Of a stretch of 64,000 nt of DNA, positions 2,634-54,898 are shown piece by piece. The notes under the pieces were generated by a model. That model was given only the letters and a program-made list of their open reading frames with translations, did no database searches and was not told the origin of the DNA. Source of the stretch: Polytrichum commune (Eukaryota > Streptophyta > Polytrichopsida > Polytrichales > Polytrichaceae); the NCBI GenBank assembly GCA_950295325.1, contig OX485808.1:30650527-30714526 (forward strand). The letters are read 5' to 3'. Position numbers and translations under genes: made by a program. Numbering within the stretch: position 1 is the first letter of the stretch; every line of letters starts with the position of its first letter.

Positions 2634-2737
2634 GTATGATACATAATGCAAATGAAATTGTAGATTCTTTGCTACTTTGTTAGAATATGGTGATAATTAT
2701 ACTAGAGAATTAATTGCATGTGGTGTTGTACTTGCAG

Positions 2738-5217
2738 GGCATAGAACTTGTGGAAGGCCTTTCATTTACTACGTTTGAAAGGAATAATTTGGCAATTCAA
2801 ACAAATGTAGGTGTGAACACCATGAAAAACCTACGATTTTTGAGTATTAAGAATTGTGAACATATCGACATGCTTTTAGCTATCATTACCAAAACAAAGA
2901 CATTGAAATGGTTGAGGATCCATTTCTCAACTCTATATGACAACATTTTACAGCAGCATACATATTTTATGAAGGAATTCATGAAGGTTGGTGAAGATCA
3001 TCTTCAACAATTGGGTGTACTTGAACTATTTGAAATCATAATTTGCACACCTGCTATATTCCAAAATTTCCAACCTAAATTCTTGAAAGAAATATCCTTC
3101 ATCAAGTGCACATTCCCACAAGGGGAATTTCCGATTGGCCTTGGAAACATAGAATTGGAAGAACTCAACATTTATGACTGTGAACAACTGAAAACACTAC
3201 CCAAAGACTTAATCCATTTGACATCTCTACTCAAATTGGACATCTCCAAATGTACGAGCTTGGAGGAGTTCCCATCCGGAATATGCACTCTCAAGGCTTT
3301 GGAGGAATTAGATTTCAATGGATGCAGATCTTTGAGGAAAATACCGGAAGGGTTGGGGGGGTTGACTTGTTTGAAGAAATTGATGATGTGGGATTGCGAG
3401 GCCTTGGAGGTGTTCCCTTCCGGAATATGCACTCTCAAGGCTTTGGAGGAATTACATTTCAATGGATGCAAATCTTTGAGGAAAATACCGGAAGGGTTGG
3501 GGGGGTTGACTTGTTTGAAGAAATTGATGATGTCCGATTGCGAGGCCTTGGAGGAGTTCCCTTCTGGAATATGCACTCTCAAGGCTTTGGAGGAATTGTC
3601 ATTAAGCGGTTGCAAATCTTTGAGGAAAATACCGGAAGGGTTGGGGGGGTTGACTTGTTTGAAGACATTGTACATGTGGGATTGCGAGGCCTTGGAGGAG
3701 TTGCCTTCCGGAATATGCACTCTCAAGGCTTTGGAGGAATTAGATTTCAAATACCGGAAGGGTTGGGGGGTTTGAGTTGTTTGAAGAAATTGATGATGTG
3801 GGATTGCGAGGCCTTGGAGGAGTTCCCTTCCGGAATATGCACTCTCAAGGCTTTCGAGGAATTAGATTTCTCTAAATGCAAATCTTTGAGGAAAATACCG
3901 GAAGGGTTGGGGGGGTTGACTTGTTTGAAGAAATTGTACATGTGGGATTGCGAGGCCTTGGAGGAGTTCCCTTCCGGAATATGCACTCTCAAGGCTTTGG
4001 AGGAATTATCATTCAGAGGATGCAAATCTTTGAGGAAAATACCGGAAGGGTTGGGGGGCTTGACTTGTTTGAAGAAATTGATGATGTCGTATTGCAAGGC
4101 CTTGAAGGTGTTCCCTTCCGGAATATGCACTCTCAGGGCTTTGGAGGAATTACATTTCAATGGATGCAAATCTTTGAGGAAAATACCGGAAGGGTTGGGG
4201 GGGTTGACTTGTTTGAAGAAATTGATGATGTGGGATTGCGAGGCCTTGGAGGAGTTCCCTTCCGGAATATGCACTCTCAAGGCTTTGGAGGTATTAGCAT
4301 TCAAAGGATGCACATCTTTGAGGAAAATACCGGAAGGGTTGGGGGGGTTGACTTGTTTGAAGAAATTGATGATGTGGGATTGCGAGGCCTTGGAGGCGTT
4401 CCCTTCCGGAATATGCACTCTCAAGGCTTTGGAGGAATTGGATTTCTCTAAATGCAAATCTTTGAGGAAAATACCGGAAGGGTTGGGGGGTTGACTTGTT
4501 TGAAAATATTGCACATGTGGGATTGCGAGGCCTTGGAGGAGTTCCCTTCCGGAGTATGCACTCTTAGGGCTTTGGAGAAATTACATTTCAATGGATGCAA
4601 ATCTTTGAGGAAAATACCGGAAGGGTTGGGGGGGTTAAGTTGTTTGAAGCAATTGTGCATGAAGGATTGCGAGGCCTTGGAGGAGTTCCCTTCCGGAATA
4701 TGCACTCTCAAGGCTTTGGAGGTATTAGCATTCAAAGGATGCACATCTTTGAGGAAAATACCGGAAGGGTTGGGGGGGTTGACTTGTTTGAAGAAATTGG
4801 ACATGGCGGACTGCGAGGCCTTGGAGGAGTTCCCTTCCGGAATATGCACTCTCAAAGCTTTGGAGGAATTCTCTTTCTATGGATGCAAATCATTGACAAA
4901 AATACCAGAAGGGTTGGGGGGGTTGACTCGTTTGAAGGAATTGTACATGTGGGATTGCGAGGCCTTGGAGGAGTTCCCTTCCGGAATATGCACTCTCAAG
5001 GCTTTGGAGGAATTACATTTCAATGGATGCAAATCTTTGAGGAAAATGCCTGAAGGGTTGAGGGGGTTGACATGTTTGAAGAAATTGGACATGTCGGACT
5101 GCGAGGCCTTAGAGGAGGTCCCTTCCGGAATATGCACTCACAAAGCTATGGAGGAATTCGCTTTCTATGGATGCAAATCATTGAGGAAAATACCAGAAGG
5201 GATGGGGTGGTTGACAT
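2738..5217 (+). pseudogene. Copy A LRR exon, 5' part, with 144-bp repeat array
   Basis: The exon starts after acceptor TACTTGCAG (phase 0, GIELVEGL). About 170 codons of divergent pre-LRR and LRR sequence are followed by near-identical units of 144 bp (48 residues, two 24-residue LRRs) from about 3250. The LRR core has the pattern LEEFPSGICTLKALEEL / C / SLRKIPEGLGGL. The frame breaks at 3750/3751, where 22 bp are missing relative to other units (stop at 3775). It resumes in another frame to 4494, where a G-run of 6 instead of 7 creates TGA. It then continues in the third frame up to the transposon at 5218. About 13-14 units lie in this part. Confidence 0.85.
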
Positions 5218-6563
5218 CACTAGAGGAAAACAATGTTTTGTCCAGTGTTTTTCTACGTCATCTGAAACGTAAAACCCATAATATCCGGAATTATAATAGG
5301 TTGTTGTGACCTCACCGTTGGCTTGATCACGTGGGCTGTGTAGATTAAGAAGAATCCAACCTGAGCCTCCCGGGATGTACGCACGTTTGCCTCCTTTACA
5401 TGTCAACCACATCTCCATGAGGTGGATCCACTGATTTTCGTAGGCAATTGCACGCTACGGCATTGTTTATGTAGATTTTAGGCTCTGTTGTATTTAATTG
5501 ATAGAACATTGTATCTGCATTATTTTAAATGAAATCTAGAATTTTTCATATTGTGCCACACCTCTTCGTGCGCACAATGAATTGCTCAATCTTACACCCA
5601 TGCTCCGTTTAGTGATGTTCATATGCGTATTTATGAATGTGATATGTACGTTTTTAATGACGTTATAACGTGTTTATTTGTGTGTTACAAAGCGTTTAAT
5701 TGTGTGTTAGAAAGCGTTTGTTTGTGTTTCAAAGCAATTAATTGTATGTTACAAAGCGTTAATTGTGTGTAACAAAGCGGTTAATTATGTGTTAACAAGC
5801 GTTTCATTGTCTGTCACAACACGTTATAACGCGTTAAATTGTGTTTTAATTGACGTTTTGTTCGCGTTTTGTATGACCTTATACCGTGTTACAGAACGTT
5901 ATTACTTACGTTCAATAGTGTTATATGTGTCATAATGGTCATGAGCTATGCGTCTGGATGAACATTACATTGCGTTTCAGTGAACACACAAAATCCTCTT
6001 TGATGTTACAAAGAGTTGACGGTGCGAACGTCAACTTCCGTCTAAAAGCGTTTTCCAAAACGCATTCAAATATGTGACACATGCGTTTATCAGCGTCCAA
6101 ACACGTTATAATGAACGTCCATAACGCACTTCCAAAACACGCTACACTGCGTTTACGTAAACATACAATACCCGACACCCTAAATGCGATCCGCAAATAT
6201 TAGATTATTCCATGATCATGACATGTGTCATCATCTCAACCATCTAAATCCAACTGCCATGTCAACTGCCACGCAATATCCACGTAAGCTCCAACGTGGA
6301 ATAAAAACAGCGGGAAATGCTCACGTGGCAAGTAAGTAACTCCCTCGATTTACTGACCCCATGTAATTTTTGGTTATCCCAATTAACGTGAATTAACGGG
6401 AATAACGTGCGCGCGTTAAACCGTTTAACGTGCACATGACGCGTCGCGTTAAAACCAAAAGACGTGACACAAGCGTCACTTTTCACTAGTCAAAAAACCC
6501 ACGTTAAACCGCGTTAAAAACCGCATTAAACCGCGTCATTTTCGACGCGGCTTTCTTCTAGTG
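5218..6563 (+). mobile_element. Non-autonomous CACTA (CMC/EnSpm-type) DNA transposon inside the LRR
   Basis: The element begins CACTAGAGGAAAAC and ends with the inverted form of CACTAGAAGAAAGC (12 of 14 positions identical). It is flanked by the perfect 3-bp direct repeat CAT (5215-5217 and 6564-6566). Removing the element and one CAT restores the normal repeat text TTGACATGTTTGAAG seen in neighbouring units. A 3-bp target duplication and CACTA ends define this superfamily. Inside are many short GCGTT/AACGC motifs on both strands and a degenerate array of about 26-28 bp at 5680-5830, typical of CACTA subterminal binding sites. There is no transposase ORF, so it must move in trans. Strand is arbitrary. 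Confidence 0.92.
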
Positions 6564-8835
6564 CATGTTTGAAGAAATTGGAGTTGTCGGATTGCGAGGC
6601 CTTGGAGGAGTTCCCTTCCGGAATATGCATTCTCAAAGCTTTGGAGAAATTATCATTCAAAGGATGCAAATCTTTGAGGAAAATACCTGAAGGGTTGGGG
6701 GGGTTGACATGTTTGAAGAAATTGGACATGTCCCGTTGTGAGGCCTTGGAGGAGTTCCCTTCCCGAATATTCACTCTCAAGGCTTTGGAGGAATTACGTT
6801 TCAATAGATGCAAATCTTTCAGGAAAATACCGGAAGGGTTGGGGGGGTTGACATGTTTGAAGAAATTGTACATGTAGGATTGCGAGGCCTTGGAGGAGTT
6901 CCCTTCCGGAATATTCACTCTCAAGGCTTTGGAAGAATTATATTTCAATGGATCCAAATCTTTGAGTAAAAAACCAGAAGGGTTGAGGGGGTTGACATGT
7001 TTGAAGAAATTGGACATGTCGGACTGCGAGGCCTTGGAGGAGTTCCCTTCCGGAATATTCACTCTCAAGGCTTTGGAGGAATTATGCTTCAATAGATGCA
7101 AATCTTTGAGGAAAATACCGGAAGGGTTGGGGGGGTTGACATGTTTGAAGAAATTGTACATGTGGGATTGCGAGGCCTTGGAGGAGTTCCCTTCCGGAAT
7201 ATTCACTCTCAAGGCTTTGGAAGAATTATATTTCAAATACCAGAAGGGTTGGGGGGGTTGACATGTTTGAAGAAATTGGATATGTCGGAATGCGAGGCCT
7301 TGGAGGAGTTCCCTTCCGGAATATGCACTCTCAAGGCTTTGGAGAAATTATCATTCAAAGGATGGAAAACACAGGAAAATACATGAAGAGTTGGGGGGGT
7401 TGACGAGGGGTTGACTTGTAAGAAGACATTGATGATGTGGGATTGCGAGGCCTTGGAGGAGTTCCCTTCCGGAATATGCACTCTCAAGGCTTTGGAGGAA
7501 TTATCATTCAGAGGATGCAAATCTTCATAGAAAATACCGGAAGGGTTGGGGGGTTGACTTGTTTGAAGAAATTGATGATGTGGGATTGCGAGGCCTTGGA
7601 GGAGTTCCCTTCCGGAATATGCACTCTCAAAGCTTTGGAGGAATTCTCTTTCTATGAATGCAAATCATTGAGGAAAATACCAGAAGGGTTGGGGGGGTTG
7701 ACATGTTTGAAGAAATTCGACATGTCGGACTGCGAGGCCTTGGATTAGTTCCCTTCCGGAATATGCACTCTCAAGGCTTTGGAGGAATTACATTTCAATG
7801 GATACAAATCTTTGAGGAAAATACCAGAAGGGTTGGGGGGTTGACATGTTTGAAGAAATTGGACATGTCGGACTGCGAGGCCTTGGAGGAGTTCCCTTCC
7901 AGACTATGCACTCTCAAAGCTTTGGAGGAATTCTCTTTCTATGGATGCAAATCATTGAGGAAAATACCAGAAGGGTTGGGGGGGTGGACTTGTTTGAAGA
8001 AATTGTCCATGTCGTGTTGCCAAGCCTTGGAGGAGTTCCCTTCCGGAATATGCAGTCTCACAGCTTTGGAGGAATTACATTTCAATGGATGCAAATCTTT
8101 GAGGAAAATACCGGAAGGGTTGGGGGGTTGACTTGTTTGAAGACATTGATGATGTGGGATTGCGAGGCCTTGGAGGAGTTCCTTTCCAGAATATGCACTC
8201 TCAAGGCTTTGGAGGAATTGCATTTCCATGGTTGTAAATCTTTGAGGGAATTACCAGAAGGGTTGGCGGGGTTGATTTGTTTGAGGAAATTGTACATGTG
8301 GGATTGGAAGGCCTTGGAGGAATTCCCTTCCGGAATATGCACTCTCAAAGCTTTGGAGGAATTATCATTCAAAGGATGCAAATCTTTGAGGGAAATACCG
8401 AAAGGGTTGGGGGGTTCGGTTGTTTGAAGCAATTGGGCATGAGGGATTGTGAGGTCTTGAAGGAGTTGACTTCTGGAGTATGCACTGTTAAGGCTTTGGA
8501 GGTATAAGTTTTCAAAGGGTGCAAATCTTTGAGATAGGTGATTGCATACATTGGTGATTGCGAGGCTTTGGAAGAGTTCCTTTCCGGAATATGTACTCTA
8601 AGGCTTTAAAGGATCATCATTCAATGAACGCAACTCTTTGAGGAAAGTAACAGAAGTGTTGGGGGGTTTGACTTGTTTGAGTAAATTGAGATAGTGAGGC
8701 GTTGGAGGAGTTTCGTATTGAGCTATGGACTTACGGAGTTTGGAGGCGTTATCATTGTACTGTAGGATATCTTTGAGGTATGTACGGGATGGATTTGAAG
8801 GTTTTTGGTGTTTGAAGGAATTGTCCATGGCTTGA
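6564..8835 (+). pseudogene. Copy A LRR exon, 3' part, heavily frameshifted
   Basis: The 144-bp LRR units resume directly after the CACTA element. LRR-frame pieces run 6569-6874, 6890-7235 and later fragments. Breaks include TGG to TAG at 6875-6877, a second 22-bp deletion at 7235-7237, an 11-bp disturbance near 7400, GAG to TAG at 7746-7748, and several G6 runs in place of G7. From about 8400 the units become divergent, then end in GFEGFWCLKELSMA and a TGA at 8833-8835, the likely ancestral C-terminus. No translation across this part is possible without many corrections. Confidence 0.85.
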
Positions 8836-45670: not shown

Positions 45671-45741
45671 GGTTTTGTGTTTTGCATATTGGTATATGAC
45701 ATAATTATGTTGATTGTGATGTTTTGTGTATGATTTTCCAG

Positions 45742-47469
45742 GAACATATGCAAATTATGACAAACATACAAGGCTTTCTAGAGGAAGTTACAAACTTCCC
45801 TAAAATAGAGGAGAATCCAGAGGTTTTGAATAGTAGGCAATGCAAGAATTTGTTGGTGAATATTCAAAATGGTCTGGAAACAATTCAAAGGATGATCGAT
45901 GGTTCCTATGGGGGGGATGTGTTCCACCAAGTAGAGCAAGAGATGCTTGGTATTATGAAGAAAGCAAGGCATATGGTTGAAGAATGTTGCAAGGTCGGTG
46001 ATTGGTGTCGAGTGGTGGTCATGCAATTGAATAACAAAGAATCTTTCAGAGAACTTCTCGTGGACTTTGAGTATTGTTTCCACACAATGTGCGAAATATT
46101 TTGCCAATCTTTTCCCAATCGTGAAGTTGAAATCCGAGATATGGAAAAGTCTACAACATTCTACCCAACATCCATTGATGACATTGAGCAAGACCAAACT
46201 GCAATATTTGAACGACTATCCATGGAGGTGAATTTGTCTAGAATTGACAATTGCAAAGATCATTGCATGCTTTTGCGATATTTAATGGAACGAATAACGG
46301 GGTTGCAAAAGGTTGCGGGTGGTGAATTAGATAGCATTGTCTTTCCATATATCTATGAACCCCCTAACTATGGGAGGAGACCTAAGCCTTTGGGTAAGGG
46401 GGGGTATGGGAGTGTATACTCAACCCAATGGTTAGGATTTGAAACTGCTACAAAGGTTATCAAAGTTGAGAACCCTGAGCATGAGACAATCGTTCGCAAA
46501 GAGGCTAGTATTTTGGGCGGATTGAATCATCCCAACATCATCAAGTTTTTTTGGTGTGGCTTATCAACAGATGGTGATGCACATGGAGGAGAAAGTCAAG
46601 GATTTGAAATCGTCATGGAACGAGGAATTATGAGCTTATCAAGTTTTTTGAAAGAAGGTGTGCTCACAGAAGCCGTGGTAATTGACATTATGATACAAAT
46701 TGCAAGTGGAATGTGTTATCTTCATGACATGAAAGTGGCGCATCGTGATTTGAAGCCCGATAATGTTATATTGACTTCAACGGGTGGCTCAACATTGGAA
46801 CATGTGCATGTGAAGATACTTGATTTTGGGATTTCAAAGATTGAAGTGAAAAACTCCCCACAAGTGCCTACAAATGGAGGTTGTTTTGGTACTTGCGGAT
46901 ATATGGCACCTGAAGCTCATACAAAACGAAGTTCAGAGGTGGATGCATTCAAAACGGATGTATTTAGTTTTGGCATGATGTGCTACGAGATTCTTTCGAA
47001 CAAGAGAGCTTACACTGGAAAGATGTTACGTGACTATGTGAAGTTTTTGGAAAACAAGAGACCGGAGTTACCCAAAACTTGCTCTAAAGATTTGAAATCC
47101 TTGATACATGAATGTTGGTCTTCGGAACCTTTGAATAGGCCCACATTCCTTGATATCTTTGAGAGGTTGAGAAAAGTCAAAAGTGATGCAATGCTCAAGG
47201 TTGCTAGTGATGTGAGAGTGGCTAGAATTTTGCACGAATCCACAACTCCTAGCAATCCTATTGAATATCCAAAGCGATGTTGGACAATGGTCAAACAAAA
47301 ACTCCATGCATTCAATATATGGGCAATTCTTCTTTTGTGGCAAATGTTTATCACCTTTGCTCAATGCTTGCCACGTTACATATCAAATTTCCTGGAGGCA
47401 ATTTCCATTTCATCATCAAGTGCTCAAGAGAATTCAAACATCACAACATCAAATAAAATAACTCATGAG
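45742..47469 (+). CDS. Copy B exon: helical domain, Ser/Thr kinase and hydrophobic segment
   Basis: Residues 1 to about 190 form an all-helical, cysteine-containing N-terminal domain (IQGFLEEVTNFPKIEENPEV, then CKNLLVNIQNGLETIQRMI and MLGIMKKARHMVEECCKVGD). Its helix spacing recalls the MCAfunc/HeLo-like bundles of plant MLKL and RPW8-type proteins, but this is an inference. The kinase follows with GKGGYGSV, ATKVIK, HRDLKPDN, DFG and GYMAPE all intact. A hydrophobic stretch lies at about 47310-47376 (WAILLLWQMFITFAQ). The exon ends at GAG/GTAAGC, phase 0. The start was chosen at the TTTTCCAG acceptor; an in-frame ATG follows at 45748. Confidence 0.88.
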
Positions 47470-50400
47470 GTAAGCATTGAATGAGGTCAACCTTCATTGT
47501 CAACTTTTAGTAGGGGTCAAAAGGTTGTGCATTGTGACTTTATTGGTAAAATTTGGAATTTAGTGGTATTTTTCTAGTGAGGTTTGTTGGATGGCAGTGA
47601 AAGTTTTCATTTGGCATTTTATGTAGGTCACTAAGGAAACAAAGCGAATCTCCAAATTGATCGGACTCGAAGGAAAGATATTGGAATTGGAGAAGCAACT
47701 TCACGACCTTGGTAGTTTGGGGATTGTTGGCATGGGAGGAATTGGCAAATCAATTTTGGCAAATGCTCTAAGCGACCATGTTTCCCACAAATTTGGTGCG
47801 ACATGCTTCGTGGGTGACTTTACATGTGAAAGTTGTACCATTCACGTGAAATACAAACTACAAGATGTGAAAGAGCCACCTCAAACCAAAACATTGAAAG
47901 AAGGGCACACATTTTTGAAACAATTGCAAGAGACCAAAAAAATCCTTATTGTTTTGGACAATGTGGGCAACGCAAGGCAAGTGGAAGAACTAATGGGTGA
48001 TCGCACATGTCTTGATGTTCATGGTAGCAAACTTATTGCTACATCCCGTAGTTGGGAGTGTTTGAAACAACACATACCTATAGTTGGTAAAGTAGATATG
48101 GAGACCCTTGATAAAGAGCAATCTAAAGAATTATTTTCTCTCCATGCATTTGCGACCAACCAACCATGTTTGCCATATTTGGAACATGTAGTTGAGAAGA
48201 TTATAAAGGCTTGTGATGGGCTTCCTTTGAGTTTGGAGGTGATGGGTAGTTATTTGCATGGAGAAAGGAGGTTGAGAATATGGGAGCGAACTTTACAAAG
48301 GTTGTTGAGGGCAAGACATGATGGAAGCATAGATGGGAAAATATGGGAAACATTGAGGATTAGCTTTGATGAACTCAGTAAGAAAGAACAAAATATGTTT
48401 TCCGACATAACATGTTTCTTTTCCAAAGGCTCATCGATTGGTGAATGGGTTTTTACAAAAGCAACACTACTTAGAATGTTTCATGATGACATCAATAGTG
48501 CCAAACAAACATTGGAAAGTCTACAAGACAAATCATTGGTGAAATTTGACAAAAGGGGCATTTTGGATATACATGATCAATTGCGGGATATGGGACGCAT
48601 GATTGTTGAAAAAGAGTTTCAACAAACTCGAGTTTGGAATTTATCTTTGACAACATTCCTCGAATATTGGAATCACAAGGTATGATACATAATGCAAATG
48701 AAATTGTAGATTCTTTGCCACTTTGTTAGAATATGGTGATAATTATACTAGAGAATTAATTGCATGTGGTGTTGTACTTGCAGGGCATAGAACTTGTGGA
48801 AGGCCTTTCATTTACTACGCTTGAAAGGAATAATTTGGCAATTCAAACAAATGTAGGTGTGAACACTATGGAAAACCTACGATTTTTGAGTATTAAGAAT
48901 TGTGAACATATCGACATGCTTTTAGCTATCATTACAAAAACAGTGACATTGAAATGGTTGAGGATCCATTTCTCAACTCTATATGACAACATTTTACAGC
49001 AGCATACATATTTTATGAAGGAATTCATGAAGGTTGGTGAAGATCATCTTCAACAATTGGGTGTACTTGAACTATTTGAAATCATAATTTGCACACCTGC
49101 TATATTCCAAAATTTCCAACCCAAATTCTTGAAAGAAATATCTTTCATCAAGTGCACATTCCCACAAGGGGAATTTCCAATTGGCCTTGGAAAGATAGAA
49201 TTGGAAGAACTCAACATTTATGACTGTGAACAACTGAAAACACTACCCAAAGACTTAATCCATTTGACATCTCTACTCAGATTGGACATCTCAAAATGTA
49301 CGACCTTGGAGGAGTTCCCTTCCGGAATATGCACTCTCAAGGCTTTGGAGGAATTATCATTCAGAGGATGCAAATCTTTGAGGAAAATACCGGAAGGGTT
49401 GGGGGGGATGACTTGTTTGAAGAAATTGATGATGTGGGATTGCGAGGCCTTGGAGGAGTTCCCTTCCGGAATATGCACTCTCAAGGCTTTGGAGGAATTA
49501 CATTTCAATGGATGCAAATCTTTGAGGAAAATGCCGGAAGGGTTGGGGGGGTTGACTTGTTTGAAGAAATTGTACATGTGGGATTGCGAGGCCTTGGAGG
49601 AGTTCCCTTCCGGAATATGCACTCTCAAGGCTTTGGAGGTATTATCATTCAAAGGATGCAAATCTGTGACGAAAATACCGGAAGGGTTGGGGGGGTTGAC
49701 TTGTTTGAAGGAATTGTACATGTGGGATTGCGAGGCCTTGGAGGAGTTCCCTTCCGGAATATGCACTCTCAAGGCTTTGGAGGAATTACATTTCAATGGA
49801 TGCAAATCTTTGAGGAAAATACCGGAAGGGTTGGGGGGGTTGACTTGTTTAAAGAAATTGATGATGTGGGATTGCGAGGCCTTGGAGGAGTTCCCTTCCG
49901 GAATATGCACTCTGAAGGCTTTGGAGGAATTACATTTCAATGGATGCAAATCTTTGAGGAAAATGCCGGAAGGGTTGGGGGGGTTGACTTGTTTGAAGAA
50001 ATTGATTATGTGGGATTGCGAGGCCTTGGAGGAGTTCCCTTCCGGAATATGCACTCTCAAGGCTTTGGGGGAATTATATTTAAATGGATGCAAATCTTTG
50101 AGGAAAATACCGGAAGGGTTGGGGGGGTTGACTTGTTTGAAGGAGTTGTACATGGGGGATTGCGAGGCCTTGGAGGAGTTCCCTTCCGGAATATGCACTC
50201 TCAAGGCTTTGCAGGAATTATCATTCAAAGCATGCAAGTCTTTGAGGAACATACCAGAAGGGTTGGGGGGGGTTGACTTGTTTGAAGAAATTGATGATGT
50301 GGGATTGCGAGGCCTTGGAGGAGTTCCCTTCCGGAATATGCACTCTCAAGGCTTTGCAGGAATTATCATTCAAAGCATGCAAGTCTTTGAGGAAAATACC

Positions 50401-53400
50401 AGAAGGGTTGGGGGGGTTGACTTGTTTGAAGAAATTGATGATGTGGGATTGCGAGGCCTTGGAGGAGTTCCCTTCCGGAATATGCACTCTCAAGGCTTTG
50501 CAGGAATTATCATTCAAAGCATGCAAGTCTTTGAGGAAAATACCAGAAGGGTTGGGGGGGTTGACTTGTTTGAAGAAATTGATGATGTGGGATTGCGAGG
50601 CCTTGGAGGAGTTCCCTTCTGGAATATGCACTCTCAAGGCTTTGGAGGAATTACATTTCAATGGATGCAAATCTTTGAGGAAAATACCGGAAGGGTTGGG
50701 GGGGTTAACTTGTTTGAAGAAATTGATGATGTGGGATTGCGAGGCGTTGGAAGAGTTCCCTTCCGGAATATGCATTCTTAAGGCTTTGGAGGAATTACAT
50801 TTCAATGGATGCAAATCTTTGAGGAAAATACCGGAAGGGTTGGGGGGGTTAACTTGTTTGAAGAAATTGATTATGTCGGATTGCGAGGCCTTGCAGGAGT
50901 TCCCTTCCGGAATATGGACTCTCAAGGGTTTGGAGGTATCATCATTCAAAGGATGCAAATCTTTGACGAAAATACCGGAAGGGTTCGGGGGGTTGAGTTG
51001 TTTGAAGGAATTGTACATGTGGGATTGCGAGGCCTTGGAGGAGTTCCCTTCCGGAATATGCACTCTGAAGGCTTTGGAGGAATTACATTTCAATGGATGC
51101 AAATCTTTGAGGAAAATACCGGAAGGGTTGGGGGGGTTGACTTGTTTAAAGAAATTGATGATGTGGGATTGCGAGGCCTTGGAGGAGTTCCCTTCCGGAA
51201 TATGCACTCTCAAGGCTTTGGAGGAATTGCATTTCCATGGTTGTAAATCCTTGAGCGAAATACCGGAAGGGTTGGGGGGTTTGACTTGTTTGAAGAAATT
51301 GATGATGTGGGATTGCGAGGCCTTGGAGGAGTTCCCTTCCGGAATATGCACTCTCAAGGCTTTGGAGGAATTGCAGTTCCATGGTTGTAAATCTTTGAGG
51401 GAAATACCGGAAGACTTGGGGGGGTTGACTTGTTTGAAGAAATTGACGATGTGCGATTGCGAGGCCTTGGAGGAGTTCCCTTCCGGAATATGCACTCTCA
51501 AGGCTTTGGAGGAATTACATTTCAATGGATGCAAATCTTTGAGGAAAATACCAGAAGGGTTGGGGGGGTTGACTTGTTTGAAGAAATTGATGATGTGGGA
51601 TTGTGTGGCCTTGGAGGATTTCCCTTCTGGTATATGCACTGTCAAGGCTTTGGAGGAATTACATTTCGATGGATGCAAATCTTTGAGGAAAATACCGGAA
51701 GGGTTGGGGGGGTTGACTTGTTTGAAGAAATTGATGATGTGGGATTGTGTGGCCTTGGAGGAGTTCCCTTCCGGAATATGCACTCTCAAGGCTTTGAAGG
51801 AATTGTCATTTGGAGGATGCAAATCTTTACGGAAAATACGGGAAGGGTTGGGGGTGTTGACTTGTTTGAAGGAATTGATGATGTGGGATTGCGAGGCCTT
51901 GGAGGAATTCCCTTCCGGAATATGCTCTCTCAAGGCTTTGGTGGAATTACATTTCAATGGATGCAAATCTTTGAGGAAAATCCCGGAAGGGTTGGGGGGG
52001 TTGACTTGTTTGAGGAAATTATACATGTGGGATTGCGAGGCCTTGGAGGAGTTCCCTTCCGGAATATGCACTCTCAAGGCTTTGCAGGAATTATCATTCA
52101 AAGCATGCAAATCTTTGAGGAAAATACCAGAAGGGTTGGGGGGGTTGACTTGTTTAAAGAAATTGATGATGTGGGATTGCGAGGCCTTGGAGGAGTTCCC
52201 TTCCGGAATATGCTCTCTCAAGGCTTTGGTGGAATTACATTTCAATGGATGTAAATCCTTGAGGAAAATACCGGAAGGGTTGGGGGGGTTGACTTGTTTG
52301 CGGAAATTATACATGTGGGATTGCGAGGCCTTGGAGGAGTTCCCTTCCGGAATATGCACTCTCAAGGCTTTGGAGGAATTGCAGTTCCATGGTTGTAAAT
52401 ATTTGAGGGAAATACCGGAAGAGTTGGGGGGGTTGACTTGTTTGAAGAAATTGACGATGTGCGATTGCGAGGCCTTGGAGGAGTTCCCTTCCGGAATATG
52501 CACTCTCAAGGCTTTGCAGGAATTACATTTCAATGGATGCAAATCTTTGACGAAAATACCAGAAGGGTTGGGGGTGTTGACTTGTTTGAAGAAATTGATG
52601 ATGTGGGATTGTGTGGCCTTGGAGGATTTCCCTTCCGGTATATGCACTCTCAAGGCTTTGGAGGAATTACATTTCGATGGATGCAAATCTTTGAGGAAAA
52701 TACCGGAAGGCTTGGGGGGGTTGACTTGTTTGAAGACATTGATGATGTGGGATTGTGAGGCCTTGGAGGAGTTCCCTTCCGGAATATGCACTCTGAAGGC
52801 TTTGGAGGAATTACATTTCAATGGATGCAAATCTTTGAGCAAAATACCGGAAGGGTTGGGGGGGTTGACTTGTTTGAAGGAATTGATGATGTCGGAGTGC
52901 GAGGCCTTGGAGGAGTTCCCTTCCGGAATATGCACTCTCAAGGCTTTGGAGGAATTAGATTTCAATGGATGCAAATCTTTACGGAAAATACCGGAAGGGT
53001 TGGGGGGGTTGACTTGTTTGAAGGAATTGATGATATCGGAGTGCGAGGCCTTGGAGGAGTTCCCTTCCGGAATATGCACTCTCAAGGCTTTGGAGGAATT
53101 ACATTTCGATGGATGCAAATCTTTGAGGAAAATACCGGAAGGTTTGGGGGGGTTGACTTGTTTGAAGACATTGATGATGTGGGATTGCGAGGCCTTGGAG
53201 GAGTTCCCTTCCGGAATATGCACTCTCAAGGCTTTGGAGGAATTACATTTCCATGGATGCAAATCTTTGAGCAAAATACCGGAAGGGTTGGGGGGGTTGA
53301 CTTGTTTGAAGAAATTGATGATGTGGGATTGTGTGGCCTTGGAGGAGTTCCCTTCCGGAATATGCACTCTCAAGGCTTTGGAGGAATTATCATTTGGAGG

Positions 53401-54898
53401 ATGCAAATCTTTACAGAAAATACGGGAAGGGTTGGGGGGGTTGACTTGTTTGAGGAAATTATACATGTGGGATTGTGAGGCCTTGGAGGAGTTCCCTTCT
53501 GGAATATGCACTCTCAAAGCTTTGGAGGAATTACATTTCAATGGATGCAAATCTTTGAGGAAAATACCGGAAGGATTTGGGGGGTTGACTTGGTTGAAAA
53601 AATTGATGATGCGGGATTGCGAGGCCTTGGAGGAGTTCCCTTCCGGAATATGCACTCTCAAGGCTTTGGAGGTATTAGATTTCAACGGATGCGAATCTTT
53701 ACGGAAAATACCGGAAGGGTTGGGGGGGTTGACTTGTTTGAAGGAATTGTAGATGTCTCGTTGCGAAGCGTTCGAGGAGTTCCCTTCCGGAATATGCACT
53801 CTGAAGGCTTTGGAGGAATTACATTTCAACGGATGCAAATCTTTGAGGAAAATACCGGAAGGGTTGGGGGGTTGACTTGTTTGAAGAAATTGATGATGTG
53901 GGATTGCGAGGCCTTGGAGGAGTTCCCTTCCGGAATATCCACTCTCAAGGCTTTGGAGGAATTGCATTTCCATGGTTGTTAATCTTTGAGGGAAATACCG
54001 GAAGAGTTGGGGGGGTTGACTTGTTTGAAGAAATTGATGATGTGCGATTGCGAGGCCTTGGAGGAGTTCCCTTCCGGAATATGCACTCTCAAGGCTTTGG
54101 AGGAATTACATTTCAATGGATGCAAATCTTTGACGAAAATACCATAAGGGTTGGGGGGTTGACCTCTTTGAAGAAATTGGGCATGAGGGTTTGTGAGGTC
54201 TTGGAGGAGTTGCCTTCTGGAGTATGCAGTGTTAAGGCTTTGGAGGTATACGTTCTCAAAGGGTGCATATCTTTGAGAGAAATACCGGAAGGGTTGGGGG
54301 GTTGAATTATTTGAAAGAATTAGGCATGAGGGATTACAAGGCCTTGGAGGAGTTCCCTTCTAGAGTATCCACTCTCAAGGCTTTCGAGGAATTAGATTTG
54401 GATGGATGGAAATGTTTGTGGAAAATACTAGAAGTGTTGGGGTTGTTGAGTGGTTTGAAGAAATTGATCATTTGGGAATGCCAGGCTCCAAAGGAGCTCC
54501 CTACAAAAATATGAATTGTGAAGGCTTTGGACAAACTATCAATCCGTGAATTCATATGTTTGAAGAAAATATAGGATGGGTTGGGGGTTGATTTGTTTGA
54601 AGAAATTATACAAAGGTGATTGCGAGGCCTTGGAAGAGTTCCTTTCCGGAATATGCACTCTAAGGCTTTAAAGGAATCATCATTCTATGAACGCAACGCT
54701 TTGAGGAAAGTAACGGAAGTGTTGGGGGGTTTGACTTGTTTGAAGAAATTGAGATAGTGAGGCGTTGGAGGAGTTTCGTATTGAGGTATGGACTTAAGGA
54801 GTTTGGAGGCGTTATCATTGTACTGTAGGGTATCTTTGAGGTATGTACGGGATGGATTTGAGGGTTTTTGGTGTTTGAAGTAATTGTCCATGGCTTGA
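45742..54898 (+). CDS. Kinase-NB-ARC-LRR receptor, copy B (LRR frameshifted)
   Basis: Exons: 45742-47469 (576 codons), 47627-48679 (351 codons) and the LRR exon from 48784. Introns are 157 and 104 bp, identical in length to copy A. Read literally, the LRR exon ends at TAA 50779-50781, giving about 1592 residues. LRR sequence in frame stops at the G8 run 50265-50272, and the last 170 residues are in the alternate repeat frame. The LRR frame itself is open again from 50273 to TAG 53750-53752. If the extra G were an assembly error, the protein would be about 2580 residues. Units beyond 53753 are degenerate. The ancestral stop is probably TGA 54896-54898. The 5' end may lie further upstream, because the first exon follows an acceptor-like TTTTCCAG. 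The alternative start is ATG 45748. Confidence 0.85.
47627..48679 (+). CDS. Copy B exon: NB-ARC
   Basis: Same length as in copy A, no stops. P-loop reads GMGGIGKSILA, with Ile where copy A has Thr after the Walker Lys-Ser. Kinase-2 ILIVLDNVG, GLPL (CDGLPLSLEV), RNBS-D reading MFSDITCFF, and the MHD-site IHD are present. The clearest differences from A are in RNBS-D (FLDITCFF in A) and the following 20 residues, where changes cluster. Expected to bind ADP/ATP and control receptor activation. Confidence 0.92.
48784..54898 (+). repeat. LRR-coding minisatellite of copy B, 144-bp unit, about 37 units
   Basis: After about 170 divergent codons, near-identical 144-bp units run from about 49305 to 54700. 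Each encodes two 24-residue LRRs (LEEFPSGICTLKALEEL... and SLRKIPEGLGGLTCLKKL...). About 31 units precede TAG 53750-53752. Most differences between units fall in the variable positions after the LEEL and LKKL strands (HFNGC, SFKAC, HFDGC; MMWDC, YMWDC, MSDC), which are the LRR surface positions. Some blocks of several units are near-identical over hundreds of bases (for example 50280-50560), a sign of recent unequal exchange. Degeneration after 53753 includes a G6 run, TAA at about 53980 and TAA at 54881-54883. Confidence 0.92.

Follow-up and report, generated by a model that had tools for sequence, protein, structure and literature searches.

The window analysed here, a stretch of 64,000 nucleotides (C6:30650527-30714526) from an assembly of 407.8 Mb in 64 contigs, contains a predicted receptor gene, gene B, together with a second, damaged copy formed by arrays A and A2 (Table 1). 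The first exon of gene B matches the Pkinase profile (E=1e-42) and has its 3' border at GAG|GTAAGC in phase 0. The second, flanked by TAG|GTC and AAG|GTATGA and likewise in phase 0, matches NB-ARC (E=2.4e-24) and WHD_ROQ1 (E=7.1e-9), and the third contains LRR_14 matches (E=2.8e-56 and 1.8e-141). Splice sites were inferred from sequence; neither of the predicted introns, 47470-47626 and 48680-48783, interrupts a codon (phase 0). Tandem Repeats Finder (TRF) delimits the array in the third exon at 49304-54752, with a period of 144 and 37.9 copies, and we placed 37 anchors in it.

The PNL class of Physcomitrella patens, in the part of its description used here, combines kinase, NB-ARC and LRR domains with phase-0 introns at both the kinase/NBS and the NBS/LRR junction (PMC3352924). 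Gene B has the same domain order, with an N-terminal kinase and a C-terminal LRR domain, and the same phase-0 introns. By its predicted structure it is a kinase-NB-ARC-LRR (PNL-type) immune receptor, one of about 28 paralogues.

Table 1 Features of the two receptor copies in the window.
Feature	Coordinates	Strand	Remarks
Array A, same family, 14 anchors	3266..5215	+	interrupted at about 5220
Unit of array A with 22-bp deletion and frame shift	3698..3819	+	unit spacing of 122 (usual value 144)
G6 tract in array A	4485..4490	+	common to the syntenic L004 unit
Array A2, degenerate continuation of A beyond an insertion	6608..8600	+	syntenic with L004
Copy B kinase exon	45730..47469	+	predicted start, counted from first ATG of ORF (45700..)
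G7 run in kinase glycine loop (GGT AAG GGG GGG TAT)	46398..46404	+	in frame; internal comparison
Copy B NB-ARC exon with Roq1-like winged helix	47627..48679	+	profile matches and splice borders
Copy B LRR exon start, 5' of the tandem array	48784..49311	+	CAG|GGC acceptor; array in same frame
Array B, 144-bp units (48-aa, two-LRR) with G-tract	49312..54752	+	TRF, anchors, LRR Pfam
G8 tract, one G more than the common G7	50265..50272	+	array B
+1-frame tail after G8 (169 codons), including TAA	50272..50781	+	ORF 48760..50781
LRR-frame continuation past G8, ended by TAG 53750-53752	50273..53752	+	ORF 50246..53752
G6 tract, array B	53866..53871	+	
Additional G6 tracts, array B	54153-54158; 54296-54301		

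The reading of array A stops at 3773-3775 (ORF 2714..3775). About 1.34 kb of unrelated DNA (5220-6563) splits the array, which resumes as A2, and the paralogue L004 has a matching interruption (1494 bp between anchors at 2382). Most units of A/A2 have syntenic counterparts in L004; five -1 tracts are common to the two, and one is private to L004. The 22-bp deletion that gives a 122-bp spacing occurs in A, in A2 (7184-7305) and in L004 (4452); since A carries it in a different unit from A2 and L004, it arose twice or was copied. The original prediction had noted a G6 in this copy at 4486-4491; the tract is there, one base further left. Because of the 22-bp deletion in an earlier unit, it sits in DNA that is already out of frame, and we rejected it as an instance of a frame switch in action.

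A family of remodelled LRR arrays

The 501 bp before array B (48800-49300), used as a probe, gave 33 matches in the genome, 28 of them at ≥74% identity; the remaining five, partial and 68-73% identical, were left out. The 28 arrays compared come from 26 loci outside the window and from the window's own two. Units shorter than 100 or longer than 175 bp were omitted from scoring, as was every array's last anchor, which left 819 units; the unit sets used were 795 (≥0.80 identity), 781 (0.82), 720 (0.85, tract readable) and 361 from the inner clade (0.86). Two arrays, L005 and L013, extend past the fetched 10 kb and have at least 65 units each.

Identity of the units to one consensus is mostly 0.83-1.0 and lower at array ends. 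L001 contains identical unit copies, its array consisting of roughly ten-unit higher-order repeats. In the probe region gene B and L001 are near-identical, yet their arrays have 37 and 48 anchors and differing unit sets, so arrays are remodelled faster than the adjoining DNA diverges. Both repeat identity of about 80-100% within an array and rapid change of repeat number are found in this family.

Some further features of the arrays were recorded. The kinase exons of L001 and B are only 93% identical, against near-identity in the 501 bp before the array, and judged by these alignments gene conversion or a mosaic origin of L001 is probable. L005 has repeated multi-unit blocks that bear the same G6 and nonsense units. 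Tracts of G10, G12 or G13 occur at L008:6123, L009:2528, L010:4397, L011:1231 and in the L024 units 2525 and 3824, near array ends except for one inner L024 unit; their lengths are mostly +3 or +6, which suggests past constraint on frame at those units.

A heritable length-change hotspot in the G-tract

The usual unit encodes Leu-Gly-Gly-Leu as TTG GGG GGG TTG. The resulting G7, the commonest state of the tract, far exceeds any other single-base run of the unit in length. The unit motif has 52 matches in the window with at most two mismatches, against 2.08 expected, and exact matches genome-wide number 296 for G7, 22 for G6 and 3 for G8, the G6 and G8 search patterns having a flank one letter shorter than the G7 pattern. 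The original prediction of a G7 in every unit thus holds for the motif and goes too far in "every": pure G7 is present in 517/795 units, and in 25 of the 34 scored units of array B. The G8 that it had singled out in copy B was found at its predicted place, in a unit that, with the G-run masked, has one difference from the next two units, both G7.

Frame-changing length change is concentrated at this tract. It affects 61 of 795 units within the G window (columns 86-97 of the unit alignment) and 23 elsewhere, that is, 12 columns against 132 others, a roughly thirty-fold enrichment per column. Such a hotspot is expected of a phase-variable homopolymer gene. The changes are mostly losses, with 52 units at -1 and 5 at +1.

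The losses are inherited together with their surroundings. The nearest haplotype neighbour of a -1 unit is also -1 in a fraction of 0.54, compared with 0.108 after permutation within loci (500 rounds, maximum 0.277). Single-linkage clustering resolves the 52 -1 units into 28 to 43 groups, depending on the threshold, which implies many events plus some copying. As they travel with flanking haplotypes, most -1 tracts are heritable mutations, and for those common to paralogous loci random base-calling error is no explanation. The tract is a genuine, heritable hotspot of length change.

The five +1 tracts, all G8, behave differently from the shared G6 tracts in that each is a singleton, and two lie on units otherwise identical to G7 siblings once the G-run is masked. 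They are either young mutations or assembly errors, which are hard to tell apart for 50265-50272. We considered whether the G8 of B and that of L001 might be one inherited change and rejected this, as the two units differ and that of L001 is otherwise identical to three G7 siblings.

There is accordingly a real but minor chance that the G8 of array B is an assembly or base-calling error in a repeat that is hard to polish, the true tract being G7. The singleton state of the G8s is compatible with such errors, and in Podospora a homopolymer deletion in an NLR repeat was judged a misassembly, according to the portion of that study used here (PMC12222747). The G6 tracts, which follow haplotypes and recur in paralogous loci, are for the most part real. 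Indel errors are also not rife outside the arrays, with one internal net frameshift among the 21 loci whose kinase and NB-ARC exons were compared, although arrays are harder to assemble. The original prediction had itself allowed for "only mutation or assembly error". Its first half fits best; its second is unlikely for the shared G6 tracts and a possible origin of the G8 at 50265-50272.

Selection on the receptor front and on the array

Reading the 28 loci from the front, the open reading frame ends at the G-tract in nine (six -1, three +1), at a nonsense codon in ten and at another indel in seven; L021 ends in an interrupted unit and L022 beyond its last anchor. The G-tract is the commonest single site at which arrays end and is not commoner than the scattered nonsense codons together. 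In L013 the first lesioned unit has a nonsense codon before its G-loss.

Compared with random placement, first lesions are shifted towards the 3' end. With all units included the first-lesion sum is 324 against 138 (0/2000 permutations), a result inflated by a tail stop, LEV*V, that several arrays have in common and that is probably their normal stop, counted as a lesion in the untrimmed test. Without the last four units the sum is 239 against 157 (2/2000), and without the last six it is 174 against 127 (85/2000), where the polarity is weaker. Arrays lesion-free after trimming count as clean here, and L026 is too short for the test. Six arrays of at least five units have no lesion when the last four units are dropped.

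The part of the receptor before the array is nearly intact. Kinase and NB-ARC exons were compared in 21 of the 28 loci, namely 19 fetched loci, A (its kinase exon cut at the window edge) and B. The NB-ARC exon is without stop or net frameshift in 21/21. Among the kinase exons there is one internal frameshift, in L002, and a stop at codon 13 in L011 and L012; those of L022 and L023 have one-base gaps close to the start, and in L005-L007 the last ~50 bases are unaligned. A G6 or G7 run near the glycine loop is present in the kinase exon of 17/21 loci, with no frame lesion there. Some 1126 substitutions on two trees would give about 49 stops under neutrality.

Ratios of nonsynonymous to synonymous change were compared as well. 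Overall pN/pS of kinase and NB-ARC is 0.5-0.6, and for NB-ARC it is 0.73 in early-truncated inner loci and 0.54 in long-ORF ones, a difference that may reflect somewhat relaxed selection following truncation. The close pairs L004/A, L006/L007, L015/L016 and L008/L010 have too few substitutions for an estimate, and the more divergent pair L001/B gives 0.73-0.77. Upstream and downstream units could not be told apart by their rare-variant N:S ratios; in this comparison common synonymous variants are excluded as not "rare", and upstream units are lesion-free by definition.

That these genes are pseudogenes as a whole, the family being dead and the G-tract one decaying site among many, is improbable. 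Nearly all arrays do bear a lesion, and the pN/pS values, only moderate overall and higher in the early-truncated loci, would be compatible with decay. Against this stand the open NB-ARC exons and nearly all kinase exons, where neutrality predicts dozens of stops, the 3' displacement of first lesions and the six arrays that are clean after trimming. The front of the receptor is kept and its LRR end is truncated at many different points. The truncated pair L004/A is about 10 N-terminal substitutions apart; because truncations may be recent, that truncated receptors work can only be inferred.

Frames past the G-tract and the fate of the array

The frame consequences of the tract are asymmetric, as had been predicted: a -1 change gives an immediate stop and a +1 change an open tail of very variable length. 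Loss of one G yields GGT TGA, in agreement with the prediction, and the -1 frame is shut in 781/781 units. Gain of one G leads into the VDLFEEIDDVGLRGLGG frame, which was also foreseen; that this second frame stays open through the array was not borne out. In array B it runs over 50272-50778 and ends at TAA 50779-50781, and 9 of 34 units of this array have a +1-frame stop. A return to the LRR frame by a later change, the further element of the prediction, is seen in one of the five G8 arrays (L010), where a G8 is followed one unit on by a G12 that jointly restores the frame, with a nonsense codon already upstream. The other G8 arrays show no such return, and in array B the +1 frame is shut long before the next G-loss at 53866.

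Across the family the +1 frame is not maintained. A +1-frame stop is present in 297/781 units, against an LRR-frame stop in 42/781, counts for which alignment gaps were filled with A, so that at least 2 of the 42 are artefacts. In the inner clade (n=361) the corresponding numbers are 73 and 21, even though the consensus unit offers fewer single-base paths to a stop in the +1 frame (18) than in the LRR frame (28). The +1 frame is shut in all scored units of L019 (30/30) and L024 (24/24). When a +1 change was introduced hypothetically into 349 upstream units, the median tail was 73 codons, with quartiles of 12 and 193. Conserved downstream reading in the +1 frame, as expected of programmed frameshifting, is not found in either the 781 units or the 349 hypothetical tails.

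Some arrays do have long +1 frames. Hypothetical tails reach medians of 481 codons in L001, 564 in L003, 566 in L009 and 696 in L010, and the real G8 of L001 opens a +1 tail of 1047 codons, in a homogeneous array with +1-frame stops in 4 of 45 scored units. Synonymous recoding of the unit leaves the +1 frame open in 0.9% of draws with local codon use (P=0.009), in 3.3% with uniform use (P=0.033) and in 25% when its own codons are permuted (P=0.25). An antisense frame of 1294 codons also lies open across array B (50221-54105), a by-product of repetition. We rejected the open +1 frame as evidence of coding, as the antisense frame is longer and repetition lengthens whatever frame a unit leaves open.

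The tract itself shows no conservation above neutral expectation: the third positions of its Gly codons are at 0.954 and 0.927, within the range of 0.75-0.994 of four-fold sites. Units after a first lesion bear further lesions in 22/147 cases when that lesion is in the G-tract, in 23/169 when it is a nonsense codon and in 10/34 when it is another indel; the last four units were dropped, and as co-copied lesions are not independent these counts serve for comparison and not as a formal test. The clean units that would be expected after G-lesions if these were bypassed are not seen among them, the lesion rate being that found after nonsense codons.

We consider it probable that the LRR array is an unstable one in which the first lesion along the reading frame determines the C-terminus, through ordinary mutation and repeat shuffling. 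The tandem, near-identical 144-bp units of the LRR domain would be turned over by duplication and, presumably, unequal exchange. Slippage in homopolymer runs is established mutational behaviour, and ordinary replication slippage is the likely route by which G7 would mutate, -1 far oftener than +1. Loss of a G would expose the TGA at once, and gain would open a tail that is not under selection and differs greatly in length. Units mutated in this way would be copied within arrays and with whole loci, neighbours included, so that G6 units may act as heritable, portable stops. Selection would act from the kinase through the NB-ARC into the upstream part of the LRR array; units past the first lesion would be relaxed and gather more lesions, and the truncated receptors would presumably still be expressed.

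A more far-reaching interpretation, which we regard as improbable, makes of G7 a length dial. Here -1 units would be portable stop modules. They would spread through arrays along with flanking sequence and could be lost again through slippage or unequal exchange, so that the LRR end would be reset repeatedly and kinase and NB-ARC kept, as in a contingency-like plant NLR locus. If true, it would provide high-rate heritable variation of the sensor domain in a plant immune-receptor family. A programmed or selected switch, in which slippage at the DNA or RNA level would alternate among LRR, stop and an alternative 48-residue repeat and so give many receptor C-termini, as originally proposed, is not supported and very improbable, since, for all the strength of the hotspot, the asymmetric outcomes, the long tail in L001, the compensated pair in L010 and the lowest of the recoding values, the run is not specially conserved, the +1 frame is unmaintained, lesions follow G-lesions as often as nonsense codons and other lesions end arrays as well.

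Frame-shifting poly-G tracts are known from the contingency genes of Neisseria. Like bacterial simple-repeat phase-variable genes of this kind, in which, in the sections drawn on here, a change in the length of a coding tract shifts the frame and turns the product off (PMC5084427), the present arrays have a tract whose length alters the frame. The bacterial changes are reversible and frequent and have confirmed phenotypes, whereas the arrays described here are known from the sequence of one genome and, unlike the bacterial genes, have many tracts per gene. The flax rust resistance genes M and L have direct repeats of LRR units whose number varies through unequal exchange. This is similar to the change of LRR repeat number in the present NLRs, but the flax repeats are few and large, and we know of no G-tract hotspot in them.

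A closer parallel is provided by het-d and het-e of Podospora anserina, whose WD40 repeats are 80-100% identical and change in length by what is ascribed to unequal crossing-over and concerted evolution; some Podospora NLR repeats have stops or frameshifts, as far as the consulted text goes (PMC12222747). Since repeat conservation, length change and some frameshifted units are all present there, as in the arrays described here, this kind of system is already known. The Podospora case is fungal and involves about ten WD40 repeats, in contrast to LRR arrays of up to 65 or more units, and a recurrent homopolymer site in each unit, as found here, is not described in that portion of the study. In P. 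patens, 18 PN of 45 class members are without LRR, which is reminiscent of the array truncation seen here; near-identical 144-bp LRR arrays are a difference from that account, in whose main text the word "frameshift" is absent (PMC3352924). Our literature search, which covered mostly titles and abstract openings, turned up no PNL array described as having a G hotspot that recurs in its units, which is no proof of absence.

Read as ordinary mutation, the finding is that, in one genome, most frame-changing indels in the LRR arrays of an NLR family come from a coding homopolymer within a homogenising repeat, with the signalling part left almost undamaged. Gene models that end at such tracts need checks at the level of reads.

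Splice-like sites also occur within array B, with GAG|GTATTA in some units and TTTGCAG|GAA in others at the same codon (49636-49645, 50205-50365). It is pure speculation that splicing between such sites might drop whole units in frame, the G8 unit included.
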